From Marisediminitalea oceani (GTDB lineage Bacteria > Pseudomonadota > Gammaproteobacteria > Enterobacterales > Alteromonadaceae): 64,000 nt of DNA. Shown here piece after piece: positions 34,549 to 42,094 of the stretch; the first letter of the stretch is position 1; the number at the start of each line of letters is the position of its first letter. The translations under genes were made by a program, and so were the position numbers. A model generated the notes under the pieces. The model searched no databases, had not been told where the DNA came from, and was given only the letters and a program-made list of their open reading frames with translations. The stretch lies in contig NZ_RCUA01000087.1 in assembly GCF_003731635.1 (NCBI RefSeq), positions 62,001 to 126,000 on the forward strand, written 5' to 3'.

Positions 34549-34965
34549 TTACTTACCGTAATCCGGCACCAGACGCTGATGACCGGCATCGCTGAACAAG
34601 GGCGAAGTGACCACCAGATCGGCGGTAGCCGGGGTACAGGCTACCGGAACATTCCATACAGAACACAATCTCAGCAGCGCTTTAACATCGGGGTCGTGAG
34701 GCGCCGGATTGAGTGGATCCCAAAAGAAAAACAACGCATCGAGCTTATTTTCCGCGATAAGTGCCCCGATTTGCTGATCCCCGCCGAGCGGCCCGCTTTT
34801 ATAGCGATGCACTGACAAACCAGTTTCATCACTGATTAATTTCCCCGTTGTGCCAGTGGCAACCAGATTAAACGGGGCTAATAACGCCTTGTGGTGTTTG
34901 ACCCATTGGAGTAATTCGGCTTTTTTGTGGTCGTGGGCGACCAGAGCAACAGTGCGGGCTGTCAT
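34549..34965 (-). CDS. mgsA: methylglyoxal synthase
   Basis: Converts dihydroxyacetone phosphate to methylglyoxal, a bypass of lower glycolysis under sugar-phosphate stress. The 138-residue protein contains [23 protein letters not shown] with phosphate-binding residues, [16 protein letters not shown], and [21 protein letters not shown]. The catalytic aspartate is in GGDQ. It converges with the TonB-C gene, 10 bases apart, and is divergent from the arg operon leader. Confidence 0.96.
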
Positions 34966-35078
34966 GGGATATCCTGTTTTTATTTGTATGATTTTTGGCG
35001 AACTATGGCAAATCCTGCTACATCCGGCAAGAAATACAACATAAATTGTTGAAAAACCGTAAAGCCATTCATTTCCTT

Positions 35079-35113
35079 TAAATATTTATACAAAATTATT
35101 GCATAAATATGCC
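35079..35113. promoter_or_regulatory. tandem ARG boxes (ArgR operator) of the argC operon
   Basis: Box 1 TAAATATTTATACA (35079-35092) matches 12 of 14 positions of TGMATWWWWATKCA; box 2 TGCATAAATATGCC (35100-35113) matches 13 of 14. Starts are 21 bases apart, the exact spacing of paired ArgR boxes in E. coli. Box 2 covers the -35 region of the candidate promoter, consistent with arginine-dependent repression. Confidence 0.75.
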
Positions 35114-35126
35114 AAGATTGTATCAT
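35099..35126 (+). promoter_or_regulatory. candidate sigma-70 promoter of the arginine operon
   Basis: TTGCAT (35099-35104), a 16-base spacer, and TATCAT (35121-35126, 5 of 6 to consensus). The -35 lies in ARG box 2. The implied transcript start near 35133 leaves a leader of about 320 bases before argC. Confidence 0.5.
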
Positions 35127-35206
35127 TAGCAGCAATTAAGATTCCGCACATTGTCTGTGCCTGACTAAACTATCAGTGTAGCGGAAGAAAATGACAGGAT
35201 TAGGAC

Positions 35207-35329
35207 ATGAATATTAAAACCAACCGGCATTTCCCTGCGGTTGCTTTATCACAGTTTAGCTCTCCCCTGGCTGGCTACACTATGCAGTGCCTGTGGCGAC
35301 GATGGAGTTCATCAACGCCGAAGAAGTAA
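35207..35329 (+). CDS. putative 40-codon leader peptide of the arginine operon
   Basis: Small reading frame in the argC leader, starting MNIKTNRHFPAVALSQFSSP and ending WRRWSSSTPKK. AGGA lies 7 bases before the ATG. It has three arginine codons, two of them adjacent (CGA-CGA at 35297-35302); CGA is slowly decoded in E. coli, especially in tandem. The stop lies 20 bases before the stem of a strong terminator. Position and codons suit a leader peptide that senses arginyl-tRNA. No homologue is known to me, and translation is not proven. Confidence 0.45.
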   Translation: MNIKTNRHFPAVALSQFSSPLAGYTMQCLWRRWSSSTPKK

Positions 35330-35348
35330 TGCACTAGTATGCGTAGCG

Positions 35349-35417
35349 CACTTTTTACCTTTGTGGTTTTATCGGCCTGCTCACAAGCACCAACACAAAG
35401 GTAAAAAGTGTTTTTTT
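35349..35417 (+). terminator. strong terminator-like hairpin in the argC leader (putative attenuator)
   Basis: CACTTTTTACCTTTGTG at 35349-35365 and its exact complement at 35394-35410 form a 17-bp perfect stem, with a 28-base loop and a T7 tract at 35411-35417. It lies 36 bases before argC, and transcription from the upstream promoter must pass it to reach argC-argA, so it can only act conditionally or partly. Confidence 0.7.
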
Positions 35418-35452
35418 AATTTTGTAACCAATCAATTTCAAACGATCAGATT

Positions 35453-36472
35453 ATGTTTAACGTAGCAGTGATAGGCGCCAGCGGCTATACCGGGGCGCAG
35501 TTAGTGAGTTTAATCAGTGGACATTCACACATGACCTTGCAGCATGTACTGGTGTCTGAAAACAGTCAGGATGCCGGCAAGACGATTGCCCAGCTGCACG
35601 GTAACCTCGCGCACCTGACCCAACACGTACTTGAGCCATTAGCCCCGCACCGTCTGGCCGAACTGGCAGACTCTATGGATGCGATATTCCTGGCCACCCC
35701 TCACGAAGCCAGCCACGACTGGATGGCTGAGTTATCTGCCGGTAAAGCTAAAGTATTCGATTTGTCTGGCGCGTTCCGCCTCAAAGACACCGAAGTGTTT
35801 GCCAAACACTATGGCTTTGCGCACACCTCGCAGGAATGTCTGGCCCAGGCGGTCTATGGTCTTGCTGAATACAATGCCGATGCCATCAGCCAGGCCAGTA
35901 TTGTGGCGGTTCCAGGATGTTATCCCACCGCTTCTTTGCTGGCGTTAAAACCTTTACACGATGCCGGTCTGCTGGACAACAGCGTACGCCCAATCATCAA
36001 TGCCGTTTCCGGCGTAAGTGGTGCCGGTCGTAAAGCCAGCCTTGGTACCAGTTTCTATGAAGTGAGCCTGCAGGCTTATGGGGTGCTGGGTCATCGTCAT
36101 ACGCCGGAGATCGAACTCCACCTGGGTACGCCCGTTATCTTCACACCGCACCTGGGTAATTTCAAACGTGGGATCCTGGCTACGGTTACCGTTAAGCTAG
36201 CAAGTGGTACCAGCCAATCGACACTGGATAATCTGTATAGCGAAGTGTATGGTGACCAGCCTGTTGTGCGTTTGCGCGAAAGTTTCCCTAAAATTGATGA
36301 TGTTGCGCATACGCCGTATTGCGATCTGCACTGGAAAGTCGACGAGCAATCAGGCTACGCCGTGATTACCAGTGCCATCGATAACGTGATGAAAGGCGCG
36401 GCCTCGCAAGCCATGCAGTGTGCCAATTTAGCGCTGGGTTTCCCGGCGACCGAGGGATTAATCAATGGCTGA
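35453..36472 (+). CDS. argC: N-acetyl-gamma-glutamyl-phosphate reductase
   Basis: Third step of arginine synthesis: NADPH-dependent reduction of N-acetylglutamyl phosphate. At 339 residues it has the nucleotide-binding GASGYTGAQL (residues 8-17), the loop ATPHEASHDW and the catalytic Cys in VPGCYPTASLLAL, then AVSGVSGAGRKA and HRHTPEIE. It is the first gene of argCBFGH-argA. There is no good ribosome site just upstream of the ATG, which suits regulated expression through a structured leader. argB begins 8 bases inside the end of this gene. Confidence 0.97.
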   Translation: MFNVAVIGASGYTGAQLVSLISGHSHMTLQHVLVSENSQDAGKTIAQLHGNLAHLTQHVLEPLAPHRLAELADSMDAIFLATPHEASHDWMAELSAGKAKVFDLSGAFRLKDTEVFAKHYGFAHTSQECLAQAVYGLAEYNADAISQASIVAVPGCYPTASLLALKPLHDAGLLDNSVRPIINAVSGVSGAGRKASLGTSFYEVSLQAYGVLGHRHTPEIELHLGTPVIFTPHLGNFKRGILATVTVKLASGTSQSTLDNLYSEVYGDQPVVRLRESFPKIDDVAHTPYCDLHWKVDEQSGYAVITSAIDNVMKGAASQAMQCANLALGFPATEGLING

Positions 36473-37256
36473 CATATCATCGCCGGTGGTTATAAAAGTG
36501 GGTGGCGCTCTGCTGGAAAATCCTCAGATTGCCGGCCAGTTATTGGCTGAGATCAAAACACTGCAAAGCCAGCGTCCGGTAATATTAGTCCATGGCGGTG
36601 GCCCGCTGGTGGAAACCTTACTGGCCGCCATGCAACTTACCAGTACCAAGATCGACGGTTTACGGGTAACCCCCGATGAACAAATGCCATTTGTTTGTGG
36701 CGCACTGGCTGGCAGTGCCAATAAAAGTTTATGCGGCCTGGCTATTGGTGCCGGTATCACACCGGTGGGACTATCTTTGCTGGATGGTGGCATAACCGAT
36801 TGTAAAGTACTGAATGAAAATTACGGCGCAGTGGGCGTACCGGCTGCCGGCAAACCAGAGTTGCTTAATCAGCTGCTCAGCGCCGGCTTTCTGCCCGTTA
36901 TAAGCTCGATTGGCAGCAACGCCGAGGGGCGTTTGCTCAATGTTAATGCCGATCAGGCAGCCACTGTAATTGCTGAACTGATGGGCGGCGATCTGTTGCT
37001 GCTGTCAAACGTTGACGGCGTATTTGATGGCGACAAACTACTGATACATGAACTCGACCAGCCACGGCTTGATGAAGAAGTGGCTAAAGGCGTGATCAAA
37101 GACGGCATGTTGGTTAAAGTGGCAGCAGCAATGCAGGCCGCCACCGAACTGGCTAAGCCGGTAACTATTGCAAACTGGTCAGCGCCGCTGACAGCAATAT
37201 TGGACAATCAAACCGGAACCCGCGTAATTCCGGCCTCCCAGACATCTGGAGTATAA
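36465..37256 (+). CDS. argB: acetylglutamate kinase
   Basis: Phosphorylates N-acetylglutamate, second step of arginine synthesis. The 263-residue amino-acid kinase fold has VIKVGGALLENP (catalytic Lys), HGGGPLVETLL, the substrate region DGLRVT and NADQAATVIAELMGGDLLLLSNVDGVF. The short N-terminus lacks the extra helix that makes arginine-inhibited hexamers in other bacteria, so it should be the arginine-insensitive, E. coli-like type; feedback then falls on ArgA. It overlaps argC by 8 bases, and argF starts two bases after its stop. Confidence 0.97.
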   Translation: MADISSPVVIKVGGALLENPQIAGQLLAEIKTLQSQRPVILVHGGGPLVETLLAAMQLTSTKIDGLRVTPDEQMPFVCGALAGSANKSLCGLAIGAGITPVGLSLLDGGITDCKVLNENYGAVGVPAAGKPELLNQLLSAGFLPVISSIGSNAEGRLLNVNADQAATVIAELMGGDLLLLSNVDGVFDGDKLLIHELDQPRLDEEVAKGVIKDGMLVKVAAAMQAATELAKPVTIANWSAPLTAILDNQTGTRVIPASQTSGV

Positions 37257-37257
37257 A

Positions 37258-38169
37258 ATGAAGCAGGATTTATTGACGTTTGCTAACTGGACACCAGAGC
37301 AAATGCAGGAGCTATTGTCATTAGCGGTACAAATTAAACAGGCGCCACAAGCTTATTCACAGGCGTTGGCGGGCAAGTCCATTGTTGCCCTGTTTGAAAA
37401 ACCATCGCTGCGTACGCGCGTCAGCTTCGATATTGGTATTAACCGTTTAGGCGGACACATGGTTTACTTAGACAGTCAGTCCAACAAGCTGGCTGGTCGT
37501 GAGGACTCAGTAGACGTGGCCGCTAACCTGGCTTGCTGGGCAGATGCCATTGTCGCCCGGGTATTTTCTCACAGCACGCTGGAAACCTTTGCCGAAGCGG
37601 CCAAGGTTCCGGTAATCAACGCGCTGTGCGACAAATACCATCCTTGTCAGGGCTTAGCCGACTACCTCACCCTGTTCGAAAAATTTGGCAGTTGTGAAGG
37701 CCTGACCATGGCTTATGTGGGCGATGGCAACAATGTTACCCATTCGCTGCTTATCGTAGGCGCGCTGCTGGGTTGTCATCAGGTAGTTGTGACTCCTGAA
37801 GGCCATGAAGCCAGCCCTGAGATGGTTGCTCAGGCCAAAGCTATCGCCGCCAAGACCGGCGTAAAAATCGTTGAGTCAAATGACGTTGCGGCAGCCAAAG
37901 GCGCCAACGTGATTTACACCGATACCTGGTTATCAATGGGCGATGACACGCCACTTGAAACCATTAAAGACAAATTCATGCCGTACCAGGTTAACGAAGC
38001 CCTAATGGAACTGACCGGTGCAACCCACGTGTTGCACTGTCAGCCTGCTCACCGCGACCTGGAAATTACCGGCAGCCTGATGGACAGCGATGCGTCGTTG
38101 TTAATGCAGCAGGCTGAAAACCGGATGCACGGCCAAAACGCAATTTTAACCCATTTACTTGGAGCCTAG
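37258..38169 (+). CDS. argF: ornithine carbamoyltransferase
   Basis: Makes citrulline from ornithine and carbamoyl phosphate. Motifs: carbamoyl-phosphate loop SLRTR (50-54), where many enzymes have STRTR; HPCQ (128-131); ornithine loop SMGDD (226-230), which fits ornithine rather than acetylornithine; and HCQPAHR (260-266) with the ornithine-binding Cys261, where Leu is the usual residue in place of Gln. At 303 residues it has standard length. It follows argB by one base gap, and argG follows 14 bases on. Confidence 0.95.
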
Positions 38170-38183
38170 TCAGGACACTCATT

Positions 38184-39392
38184 ATGCGCAAAATCAATAA
38201 AGTTGTGCTTGCCTATTCAGGCGGTTTAGACACATCAGCCATCATTCCCTGGTTAAAAGAAAACTATGACTGTGAAGTAGTTGCTTTCGCAGCCGATGTT
38301 GGTCAGGGTGACGAAGAGCTGGAAGGCTTAAAAGAAAAAGCCATCGCCACCGGTGCCAGCGAATGTTACATCGTTGACCTGAAAGAAGAATTCGTTAAAG
38401 AATATATCTTCCCAACCATTACCACCGGCGCAATTTATGAAGGTGAGTACCTGCTGGGTACATCCATGGCCCGCCCGGTTATCGCCAAAGCGCAGGTAGA
38501 AATTGCCCGTAAAGTCGGCGCCGATGCGCTGTGCCACGGTTGTACCGGTAAAGGTAACGACCAGGTTCGTTTTGAAGGCGCATTCAACGCGCTGGCCCCT
38601 GATTTAGCGGTTATCGCGCCATGGCGCGAGTGGGATATGGTATCCCGTGAAGATCTGCTGGCTTATCTGGCCGAGCGTAATATCAAAACCACCGCATCAG
38701 CCACCAAGATTTACAGCCGTGATGCCAACGCCTGGCACATTTCTCACGAAGGCGGCGAACTGGAAGATCCATGGTGTGAGCCTAGCAAACAGGTCTGGAC
38801 CATGACGGTTGATCCGGAAGAAGCGCCGGATCAGGCAGAGCGTATTAACCTGAAGTTTAACGAAGGCGCGCTGACTCACGTAAACGGCAAAGAAGTTTCA
38901 CCGTACGAAGGCCTGGTTGAGCTTAACAATCTGGCTGCCGCCCACGGTGTTGGCCGTATCGACATCGTTGAAAACCGTCTGGTTGGTATGAAGTCGCGTG
39001 GTTGTTACGAAACTCCGGGAGGCACAGTACTGCTCAAAGCGTATAAAGCGCTGGAAACCATGGTACTGGACAAAGCTTCACTGAAATACCGTGAACAACT
39101 GGCGCTGGAGTTCTCTCACGTAATGTATGACGGCCGTTGGTTTACGCCGCTGAGCGATGCCCTGATTGCTGGCGCAGCCTCTTTTGCCAAGTACGTGACT
39201 GGTGAAATCGTGGTTAAGCTTTATAAGGGCCAGGCTACGGTTACTCAACGTCAGTCACCAAACAGCCTGTACTCTGAAGACTTCGCTACCTTTGGCGCCG
39301 ACGACGTATACGACCAGAAGCACGCTGAAGGCTTTATCCGCCTGTTCAGTTTATCAAGCCGTATTGCGGCCTTGAAAAAGCAGGGAGAGTAA
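38184..39392 (+). CDS. argG: argininosuccinate synthase
   Basis: ATP-dependent joining of citrulline and aspartate. At 402 residues it is the short (bacterial type 1) form. The PP-loop motif [16 protein letters not shown] is at the N-terminus, followed by [15 protein letters not shown] with the citrulline/Asp site, and [20 protein letters not shown]. Gene order argF-argG-argH with gaps of 14 and 2 bases shows one transcript. Codon use is rich in frequent codons, as expected for a highly expressed enzyme. Confidence 0.97.
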
Positions 39393-39394
39393 TC

Positions 39395-40777
39395 ATGGCA
39401 TTGTGGGGAGGCCGGTTCGCTGCCGGCAGCAGTAACATGTTCCGTCAGGTCAACGACTCATTGCCGTTCGACCAGGCCATGGCCGCGCAGGATATGGAAG
39501 GTTCAATCGTATGGTCACGGGCACTGGCAAAAGCCGGCGTGCTGACCAGCGAGGAACAGCAGCAACTCGAAGCTGCACTCAGCGAATTAAAAGCCCAGGC
39601 GGAAGCCGGTGAAATCGACTTTAACGCCAGTGGCGAAGAAGACATTCACAGCTTTGTCGAAGCAGCCTTAATTGACAAGCTCGGCGACGTGGGGCGTAAA
39701 CTGCACACCGGCCGCAGCCGTAACGATCAGGTTGCGACAGATTTCCGCTTGTGGTGCCGTACCCACATTGAGTCATTAAAAGCCGATGTGACGGCAGTGG
39801 TTCGCAGCCTGCTGCATACCGCCAGTCGTCACCAGCAAGCGATTATTCCCGGCTATACGCACTTACAGCGCGCCCAGCCGATCCGTTTCCCGCACTGGTG
39901 CTTAGCCTATGTGGAAATGTTTAAACGCGACCTGAGCCGGTTAAACGATTTACATGAACGCATGAATCAGTGCCCGCTGGGCTCTGGTGCACTGGCCGGT
40001 ACTACGTACCCGGTCGACCGTCATGAAATCGCCGATCAACTGGGTTTCAGTGGCCCCTGCTTGAACAGCCTGGATGCGGTATCAGACCGTGACTTCGTGC
40101 TGGAGCTGCTATTTACCGCCAGCACCAGCATGATGCACCTGTCGCGTCTGGCTGAAGATTTAATTTTCTATAACTCTGGCGAAGCCGGTTTTCTGCAACT
40201 GGGCGACAGCGTGACCTCTGGTTCATCACTGATGCCGCAGAAGAAAAACCCCGATGCGCTGGAATTACTGCGCGGCAAATGCGGCCGGGTATTTGGCCAC
40301 TTGCAGGCGCTGCTGGTCACCATGAAAGGTCTGCCTCTGGCGTACAACAAAGACATGCAGGAAGACAAAGAAGGTGCCTTTGATGCCGTGAATCAATGGC
40401 ACTGCTGTCTGTGTATCGCTTGTGAAGTGCTCGACAGTCTGGCGCTTAACGAAGAACGCTGCCGGATTGCCGCCGCCCAGGGCTATTCTAATGCCACTGA
40501 GCTGGCCGATTACCTGGTAGGTAAAGGCATTCCGTTCAGAACGGCTCATGATATCTCTGGTCAGGTAGTATTACTGGCACTGGAGCAGAATGCACCCATT
40601 GAAGATTTATCGCTGGCACAGCTGCAATCAGTGTGCAGTGATATTGATGAAGATGTTTACCCGGTTCTCCAACTCGAATATGGCGTGGATAAGCGCAATA
40701 TTCTGGGTGGAACCAGTGCTGAGACGGTCACCAAGGCACTGTACGAAGAACTGGAAAAACTGGATAAGTTAGGATAA
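39395..40777 (+). CDS. argH: argininosuccinate lyase
   Basis: Cleaves argininosuccinate to arginine and fumarate. The 460-residue fumarase/aspartase-superfamily protein has LWGGRFAAGSSNMFRQVNDSL, HTGRSRNDQVATDFRLW, TLHLQ-type GYTHLQRAQPIRFPHW and the signature GSSLMPQKKNPDALELLRGK with the catalytic Ser. It ends without the C-terminal GNAT extension of the ArgHA fusion proteins of some marine gammaproteobacteria. argA follows 6 bases later. Confidence 0.97.
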   Translation: MALWGGRFAAGSSNMFRQVNDSLPFDQAMAAQDMEGSIVWSRALAKAGVLTSEEQQQLEAALSELKAQAEAGEIDFNASGEEDIHSFVEAALIDKLGDVGRKLHTGRSRNDQVATDFRLWCRTHIESLKADVTAVVRSLLHTASRHQQAIIPGYTHLQRAQPIRFPHWCLAYVEMFKRDLSRLNDLHERMNQCPLGSGALAGTTYPVDRHEIADQLGFSGPCLNSLDAVSDRDFVLELLFTASTSMMHLSRLAEDLIFYNSGEAGFLQLGDSVTSGSSLMPQKKNPDALELLRGKCGRVFGHLQALLVTMKGLPLAYNKDMQEDKEGAFDAVNQWHCCLCIACEVLDSLALNEERCRIAAAQGYSNATELADYLVGKGIPFRTAHDISGQVVLLALEQNAPIEDLSLAQLQSVCSDIDEDVYPVLQLEYGVDKRNILGGTSAETVTKALYEELEKLDKLG

Positions 40778-40783
40778 CTGCAA

Positions 40784-42094
40784 ATGGTGCTATCGCATCA
40801 CGAAAGTATTGGATTATTCAGAAGCTCGGCGCCTTACATCAATGCACACCGGGGTAAAACCTTTGTGCTGATGTTTGGCGGCGAGGCCATTGAAGACGAT
40901 AACTTTCCCAATATTATTCAGGATATCGCACTGCTGAGCAGTCTGGGGGTACGTCTGGTACTGGTGCACGGTGCCCGCCCGCAAATTGATCAACGGGTAG
41001 CCCTGCGTAAAACCGAGGCGCGCTTTAGTCACGACGTGCGTATTACCGATAAAGAAACCCTGGAATGCGTAAAAGACGCAGCTGGCTCGGTGCGCTGCCA
41101 TATTGAAGCGTTGCTGACCATGGGTTTACCCAACTCACCTATGCACGGTGCGCATATTCGCGTGTGTACGGGTAATCTGGTGGTCGCTAAACCTATGGGT
41201 GTACTCGACGGTGTAGACTTTGAAAACACCGGTCAGGTGCGTCGTATCGACACCACAGGTATCAACGACCACCTTAATGATGGCTCTATCGTGCTACTGT
41301 CGCCGATGGGCTACTCTTCTACCGGTGAAGTGTTTAACCTGTCTCACGAAGATGTGGCAACCCAGGCCGCGATCGCGCTGGAAGCCGATAAACTGGTGGT
41401 ATTCTCCAACTATTCGGGCATTTTCCGTAAAGACGGCAAGCTTATTCGCACCATTGAGCGAAACCTGCTTGAACAGTTACACCGCGACGATGAGCTGATG
41501 ACCGAAGCCACGGTTATCCGCGCACTGACTACCAGCGTGGCAGCGGGCATTCCTCGTGCTCACTGTGTCAGTTATGAAACCGATGGTGCCCTGCTGCAGG
41601 AATTATTTACCCGTGACGGTGCCGGTTCACTGGTGATGGAAAACCACTACGAGCAGCTTCGGGAAGCCACCATCGACGACGTGGGCGGCATCCTCAATCT
41701 CATCAAACCGCTGGAAGAAAGTGGTGTATTGGTGAAACGTTCCCGGGAACGGCTGGAGAATGAAATTCATCAGTTTATTGTGATAGAACGGGACGGCATG
41801 ATCATCGCCTGTGCCGCGCTTTACCTTTATCCTGATGACGGCTCAGCCGAGCTTGCCTGTGTAGCAACCCACTCCGATTATCGGGGTAAAAACCGTGGCG
41901 AGCGGATCCTCGATGAAGTTCGCGAACGCGCCATTGCCGCCGGTATTCAGCGCCTCTTCGTTTTAACCACTGTGACCGGTCACTGGTTTCTGGATCAGGG
42001 TTTCAAGGCGGCGGATGTTGACGCGCTGCCAGCTCAAAAGAAAGAGCTGTATAACTTTCAGCGTAAATCAAAAGTCTACACCCTCGATTTATAG
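40784..42094 (+). CDS. argA: N-acetylglutamate synthase, ArgA type
   Basis: First committed enzyme of arginine synthesis. An N-terminal amino-acid-kinase-like regulatory domain (about 1-290; FVLMFGGEAIED, LVLVHGARPQID, IVLLSPMGYSSTGEVFNL) is followed by a C-terminal GNAT acetyltransferase domain (about 295-436) with LACVATHSDYRGKNRGERIL and VLTTVTGHWFLDQGF. The AAK domain is the arginine feedback sensor in E. coli. Its placement as last gene of the operon, separate from argH, is unlike the fused ArgHA arrangement. A hairpin follows at 42105-42133. Confidence 0.95.
   Translation: MVLSHHESIGLFRSSAPYINAHRGKTFVLMFGGEAIEDDNFPNIIQDIALLSSLGVRLVLVHGARPQIDQRVALRKTEARFSHDVRITDKETLECVKDAAGSVRCHIEALLTMGLPNSPMHGAHIRVCTGNLVVAKPMGVLDGVDFENTGQVRRIDTTGINDHLNDGSIVLLSPMGYSSTGEVFNLSHEDVATQAAIALEADKLVVFSNYSGIFRKDGKLIRTIERNLLEQLHRDDELMTEATVIRALTTSVAAGIPRAHCVSYETDGALLQELFTRDGAGSLVMENHYEQLREATIDDVGGILNLIKPLEESGVLVKRSRERLENEIHQFIVIERDGMIIACAALYLYPDDGSAELACVATHSDYRGKNRGERILDEVRERAIAAGIQRLFVLTTVTGHWFLDQGFKAADVDALPAQKKELYNFQRKSKVYTLDL

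Follow-up and report, generated by a model that had tools for sequence, protein, structure and literature searches.

A conserved leader upstream of argC in Alteromonas and its relatives, probably a ribosome-mediated attenuator specific for arginine

The argC operon and its leader region

The window (the whole 64,000-nt stretch of DNA analysed here) contains an arginine biosynthesis operon on the forward strand with the gene order argC-argB-argF-argG-argH-argA, as judged from NCBIfam matches. The argC gene (35453–36472; TIGR01850, 373.7 bits) is followed by argB (36465–37256; TIGR00761), argF, encoding ornithine carbamoyltransferase (37258–38169; NF011380), argG (38184–39392; NF001770), argH (39395–40777; TIGR00838) and argA, encoding amino-acid N-acetyltransferase (40784–42094; NF003641). 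A methylglyoxal synthase gene (34549–34965, reverse strand) lies divergently upstream of the operon.

All the leader features described here are on the forward strand. The most distal from argC is an ARG-box-like tandem operator (35080–35113), which overlaps the −35 region and appears conserved in the alignment of Alteromonas argC upstream regions. It is called an ARG box from the E. coli consensus, and we take it to be an ArgR site. It is followed by a candidate −10 box, TATCAT (35121–35126), of which TA...T is conserved in the alignment. The original prediction had placed paired ARG boxes (35079–35113) over a candidate promoter; the operator-like sequence is indeed present and conserved, whereas the consensus scan returned no σ70 promoter. 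Stock scans of 34900–35700 reported neither a σ70 promoter nor a terminator, under rules (a terminator loop of 3–8 and at least 4/6 matches per hexamer) that the argC leader site fails.

A leader ORF of 40 codons (MNIKTNRHFPAVALSQFSSPLAGYTMQCLWRRWSSSTPKK; 35207–35329) starts at ATG 35207, seven bases after the Shine–Dalgarno sequence AGGA (35196–35199; conserved as aGGA in the alignment). Within it lie a CUCCCnnGnCUn element that is conserved at the RNA level (35262–35273), the 5′ strand of a closing helix, P1 (GCUAC, 35274–35278), and the tandem arginine codons CGA-CGA (35297–35302), the proposed sensor. The 3′ strand of P1 (GUAGC, 35343–35347) ends one base 5′ of the stem of an intrinsic terminator, an inverted repeat with arms at 35349–35365 and 35394–35410 and a U7 run at 35411–35417. 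Together P1 and its inner stems would form a long hairpin, 1:2 (35274–35347), with the arginine codons inside. The original prediction took the ORF with its arginine codons and the terminator stem for a putative arginine attenuator, and its coordinates for the ORF, AGGA, CGA-CGA, the 17-bp perfect inverted repeat, T7 and the possible pairing partners AAGAAGT (35321–35327) and ACTTTTT (35350–35356) all check. The distance from stem to argC was given as 36 bases; on recounting, 35 bases separate the end of T7 from argC at 35453.

Conservation of the leader ORF and its tandem CGA codons

ArgC is present in all 59 genomes of Alteromonas (the GTDB genus, with the window counted within it), and 58 of the 59 argC upstream regions were aligned. 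The one left out (L055, genome G019) has a leader that is detected by the RNA covariance model described below. The alignment, read by eye from 23 of its 58 rows and the consensus, is conserved in the ARG-box-like block, the −10 box, the Shine–Dalgarno sequence, CUCCCnnGnCUnGCUAY, CGACGA, GUAGC and the terminator arms with their U-run. The reading frame is kept at all 58 loci examined, each having an ATG-started ORF of 8–60 codons in frame with the arginine codons, compared with 4/58 and 5/58 for the other two frames. CGACGA itself is found in 57 of the 58 leaders; the sole exception reads CGA-CAA-CGA, which counts against the attenuator reading. The spacing between GCUAY and CGACGA is either 15 or 18 nt, and so varies by whole codons. 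Retention in relatives of the frame and the arginine codons, ahead of a terminator before argC, was the test that the original prediction had set itself, and it was passed. The conserved argC leader is a real feature.

The analysis was extended to 94 argC upstream regions from outside Alteromonas, drawn from the family and the order (L078–L171), in which the stretch from −250 to −40 of argC was searched and the expectation was taken from dinucleotide shuffles. CGACGA is present in 43 of the 94 against 1.24 expected, counts that are not independent because several of the 94 sequences are from species of one genus. The excess ranks third of all hexamers, behind two ARG-box words, and the synonymous pairs CGTCGT (2), CGCCGC (1) and AGAAGA (0) are not enriched in the same 94 upstreams. 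In all 43 cases CGACGA is in frame with an ATG ORF, and in 39 a stop codon follows within six codons, the same test giving 2/43 and 1/43 for the other two frames. Moreover, the commonest C-terminal dipeptide of the ATG ORFs in the 94 upstreams is RR (26; the next has 7), the peptides being otherwise unrelated between genera (for example MHTLKLRR, MKMSTTIRR, MIKVQLMRRR and MNQYISQMKYTLNRRR). Tallied across eight families of the order, the carriers comprise 26 of 48 sequences from the window's family and 17 of 46 from the others.

The other 51 of the 94 regions are without CGACGA in the searched stretch, and some family members with an RR leader, such as L134 and L148, have no obvious terminator by eye; both observations count against an attenuator. 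CGACGA is absent from all 30 carA upstreams examined as a control (58 genomes with carA). At the class level it occurs in 1 of 29 argC upstreams examined (88 genomes with ArgC), a set that includes three cut, out-of-register loci (L311, L312 and L329) to which the sole match belongs. The distribution of CGACGA, taken with the carA and synonymous-pair controls, is consistent with the ribosome sensing charged tRNA-Arg. A chance origin of CGACGA was also considered and was rejected on the hexamer, frame and carA controls. At one locus of genus g5 (L081) the leader appears degenerate by eye, in that a stop interrupts it ahead of the arginine codons and CGA-CGA has gone; hairpin and terminator are still there.

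In the 51 window ORFs of at least 150 codons, CGA accounts for 66 of 886 arginine codons, and none of the 57 tandem arginine pairs reads CGACGA. Excerpts of a Salmonella study report strong relief of his attenuation where an Arg-Arg pair includes CGA, AGA or AGG (PMC4046918). With CGA this rare in the window ORFs, and given the relief seen in Salmonella, the leader pair looks to have been chosen as a slow, charging-sensitive sensor. A bias towards CGA is not needed for sensing as such, since at Salmonella speF, as excerpted, arginine is sensed equally well whether the arginine codons are frequent or rare (PMC6386406).

Structure of the leader RNA

The argC leader folds more stably than expected by chance (z −3.25). 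In a chosen set of 35 sequences, 28 of them from the 58 Alteromonas loci and 7 from other genera, its terminator helix (17 bp, −26.8 kcal/mol) is paired in 97.7% of cells, and both strands have changed in 12 of the 15 pairs, which supports a predicted intrinsic terminator before argC that is conserved with compensatory changes. In the same 35 sequences three pairs of P1 are invariant, and both-side changes are seen at two of its seven positions; in four other-genus sequences it becomes GCUAUGC:GCAUAGC. Hairpin 1:2 of the window has a folding energy of −27.3 kcal/mol (z −3.3), and over 61 distinct sequences its mean z is −2.21, with 51 of the 61 below −1. For the inner stems, 17 gapless Alteromonas sequences gave 7 double-change cells versus 3.4 in shuffles, and in this set pairs with changes on both sides were no commoner than in shuffles; the inner stems are thus moderately supported. 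It is plausible from these folds that the arginine-codon hairpin, closed by GCUAC:GUAGC and adjoining the terminator, acts as an anti-antiterminator. The original prediction had recognized the terminator stem and had overlooked both this hairpin and the RNA-level CUCCC element. At L084, the simplest variant, the CGACGACGA codons are themselves the 5′ arm of the terminator, and by eye the leader CGA codons likewise form the 5′ arm of a terminator-like hairpin at L108, L109, L114 and L121. At such loci direct occlusion by a stalled ribosome would suffice.

The CUCCCnnGnCUn (CUCCC) element lies just 5′ of P1. By eye, its third codon positions are kept in the alignment while its residues vary (for example from Leu to Met, Gln, Pro or Ser codons), which indicates that the constraint on it acts on the RNA. 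Pairing of the element with the 3′ arm of the terminator was no stronger than in shuffles in 56 Alteromonas sequences (−5.8 own, −5.9 shuffled). In five other genera (12 sequences) own values ranged from −8.9 to −12.9 and shuffled values from −7.4 to −11.9, own being stronger in four of the five; this pairing analysis leaves out L015 and 20 further sequences, including all from g5, g12 and g17 and three of the five from g7. An all-column covariation scan of 88 sequences (without L015), in which some rows are in the wrong terminator register, gave no convincing partner for the element. Leaders of genus g7 (L299, L300, L301, L090 and L093) keep the CUCCC element, a P1-like closing hairpin and the terminator and are without CGACGA, which counts against the attenuator reading. 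By eye, the closing helix of L093 looks wholly rewritten, as UGUAAUAUGGGU with ACCCAAUAUACA.

Rfam models matched at their gathering thresholds only a tRNA within the 64-kb window, and none came near its gathering score in 35050–35470; membership of a known riboswitch, T-box or other Rfam family was accordingly not found. A covariance model built from P1 and the terminator matches 67 of 395 family genomes in 11 of 52 genera, two of them weakly; 32 of the 67 are Alteromonas, and genomes used in building the model match by construction. No Alteromonas is among the misses listed, 308 further misses standing outside that listing. Most matching genomes have one full-length copy, and one Alteromonas has a second, weak full-length match; most of the other matches are the palindromic terminator read on the opposite strand. 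All 20 matches retrieved from the 35 matching genomes outside Alteromonas directly precede argC.

Candidate antiterminator strands in the window are GCCGA-AGAAGU on the 5′ side (35317–35327) and ACUUUUU (35350–35356) and UCGGC (35372–35376) on the 3′ side. When the window was folded with a ribosome stalled at the first CGA (masked to 35309) and the 3′ arm not yet made, GCCGA:UCGGC was predicted to pair at 0.68–0.99 and AAGAAGU:ACUUUUU at 0.23–0.56. Without a ribosome, the predicted value was 0.94 for P1 and 0.00–0.01 for both antiterminator helices. Once the whole leader is made, the terminator stands at 0.99 in both the stalled and the free state, which counts against the attenuator reading and means that any switch must be kinetic. 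The AAGAAGU:ACUUUUU antiterminator of the original prediction is therefore predicted to switch correctly in the window, where GCCGA:UCGGC, which that prediction had overlooked, extends it, and it is confined to the window's subclade, with no genus-wide support. Indeed, AAGAAGT is found in 9 of the 11 window-subclade sequences and in L015, and was not seen at that place in the other leaders listed. Nor does the suggestion that a ribosome at the stop codon covers AAGAAGT survive as a general rule, the distance from the first CGA to the stop ranging from 6 to 54 nt.

Genus-wide, mean pairing of the terminator arm was alike in the stalled (0.486), free (0.491) and shuffled-spacer (0.478) states (n = 45, a set holding one of the 11 window-subclade sequences, with its 5′ side cut), stalled exceeding free in 31 of the 45. 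In the 11 window-subclade sequences the corresponding values were 0.52, 0.37 and 0.47, the stalled value barely exceeding the shuffled one. Segment 2 pairing with the loop gave duplexes of −11.6 against −11.5 for shuffled sequences (p < 0.1 in 10 of 61). Both the arm-pairing and the segment-2 analyses leave out L015, which holds an N, and L039, which has no CGACGA. RNAalifold returned no structure for the main Alteromonas clade (36 sequences). An antiterminator as a general device across the genus is thus not supported by the folding models.

Proposed mechanism, alternatives and relation to known systems

Conservation of the ORF, its frame, the codon pair, the hairpin and the terminator is evident on comparison of the aligned upstream regions. 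At the level of sequence, the leader thus presents the parts of an attenuator: a leader ORF, tandem codons for the end product, hairpin 1:2 and a terminator before the first gene. We consider it likely that this is transcription attenuation of the ribosome-mediated kind, in which the leader gauges charged tRNA-Arg below the promoter of argCBFGHA that ArgR presumably controls. From this layout we infer translation of the leader, ribosome stalling, termination in vivo, a response to arginine and an antiterminator step. The ribosome would translate the leader ORF and, when arginyl-tRNA is scarce, would stall at the slow CGA-CGA pair and open hairpin 1:2 (GCUAC...GUAGC). The freed downstream RNA would then capture the 5′ side of the terminator, in the window's subclade through pairing of GCCGAAGAAGU with ACUUUUU and UCGGC, so that the terminator would be blocked and RNA polymerase would read into argC. 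When arginine is plentiful, the ribosome would pass CGA-CGA and leave at the stop codon, hairpin 1:2 would re-form and the adjoining terminator would end transcription.

The great strength of the terminator (17 bp, −26.8 kcal/mol) and the conservation of its arm sequence beyond pairing needs would also suit a plain terminator whose role is to generate a stable small RNA under ArgR control or to insulate argC, read-through being independent of arginine. Such a terminator leaves the in-frame CGA pair and the frame of the ORF unaccounted for, and we regard it as very unlikely. The CUCCC element raises a different possibility, namely that arginine or a protein is bound by the conserved CUCCCnnGnCUnGCUAC...GUAGC hairpin, which would then govern the terminator in the manner of a riboswitch, the ORF being secondary. 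The conserved third codon positions of the element, a pairing scan that leaves it without an accountable partner, and the g7 leaders that retain element, closing hairpin and terminator without tandem CGA all speak for such an RNA sensor. Against it, some family genomes (for example G070, G072 and G081) have an in-frame CGACGA without a match to the RNA model, Rfam gave no match, and conservation of the frame suggests translation, which makes control by the RNA sensor highly improbable.

The leader could, finally, act through its nascent peptide, with free arginine or ornithine arresting the ribosome on a specific sequence, as in the fungal arginine attenuator peptide or SpeFL. The distance between RR and the stop, at most one codon in 29 of the 40 ORFs listed, would suit such arrest, as would a SPLAGY-like stretch that looks conserved as peptide inside Alteromonas. 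Beyond RR, however, no conserved peptide was found between genera (by eye), CGA pairs are enriched and the synonymous pairs looked at are not, and the conserved stretch is RNA-level, third codon positions being kept while residues vary; on these grounds we judge peptide arrest to be exceedingly unlikely. It is also conceivable, if improbable, that the CUCCCnnGnCUnGCUAY...RUAGC hairpin serves as a sensory RNA in its own right, binding a ligand or protein and working with the CGA-CGA ribosome sensor and, in g7, in its place, and that the minimal ribosome sensor is the three-codon Met-Arg-Arg-stop ORF seen once in Pseudoalteromonas. The argC leader would then combine two sensors, one an RNA and the other reading tRNA charging, in a single attenuator.

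Ribosome-mediated attenuators control the trp, his, leu, ilv, thr and phe operons of proteobacteria, whereas arginine synthesis is a textbook case of repression without attenuation. With those attenuators the argC leader shares a leader ORF with tandem end-product codons, a hairpin over the codons and a terminator just before the first gene. It differs from them in its arginine specificity, in the dominance of CGA among the arginine pairs looked at, in having no antiterminator with genus-wide support, in the extra conserved RNA element and in its combination with a presumed ArgR-type operator. Judged by its sequence features, arginine is most likely a new specificity within known ribosome-mediated attenuation. 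The original prediction knew of no bacterial arginine operon with such a leader, and the open-access literature (subscription papers, preprints and supplements aside) likewise yielded no operon for arginine biosynthesis under the control of an attenuator with Arg codons. In Naville and Gautheret 2010 (PMC2965389), a search of the main text by term gave no arginine gene save one false match. An attenuator of leuA in Shewanella is described in excerpts of PMC2659441.

The fungal arginine attenuator peptide is also an arginine-linked leader peptide before an arginine gene, but there the ribosome is halted by free arginine acting via the peptide, whereas the argC leader conserves the codon pair and not the peptide. 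Further parallels come from papers cited here from excerpts. The uORFC-8-2 leader before cysS in Rhodobacterales (PMC8632094) also has two conserved tandem codons in a leader ORF within structured RNA, with attenuation proposed from comparison; it differs in having cysteine codons, a tRNA synthetase gene and an alphaproteobacterial host. In the Salmonella speF leader, two consecutive arginine codons of orf34 likewise sense arginine (PMC6386406), although there the codons are AGG-CGG, the peptide is another one, and ornithine decarboxylase is controlled via Rho, RNase G and RBS folding. Rare arginine codons in the leader peptide of S. aureus rbfL also sense arginine limitation (PMC13009471); in that case the RBS of a biofilm regulator is blocked, control is translational and starvation lowers expression. 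The Pseudomonas carA leader (PMC4997734) has a leader peptide (in P. aeruginosa) and possible attenuation before an arginine/pyrimidine gene, but the attenuation is ascribed to pyrimidines and the excerpt describes no tandem arginine codons. A modelling paper, also in excerpt, places a proposed sensor of tandem CGG codons within argA itself (PMC10325894).

If widespread, a CGA-CGA argC leader would bring arginine biosynthesis into the group of pathways monitored through ribosome stalling. Two layers of end-product control would result, the presumed ArgR responding to free arginine and the ribosome to charged tRNA, and the preference for CGA-CGA would make it possible to test, in a natural setting, why one synonymous codon serves as the sensor. 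With some leaders only as long as MHTLKLRR, and one reduced to MRR, these would be regulatory ORFs of very small size in which stalling at CGA could be tested cleanly. The MRR case lies upstream of argC in Pseudoalteromonas sp. OOF1S-7 (L174), where a three-codon ORF, ATG-CGA-CGA-TAA (Met-Arg-Arg-stop), is preceded by GAGGG; it is possibly the smallest version of the sensor.
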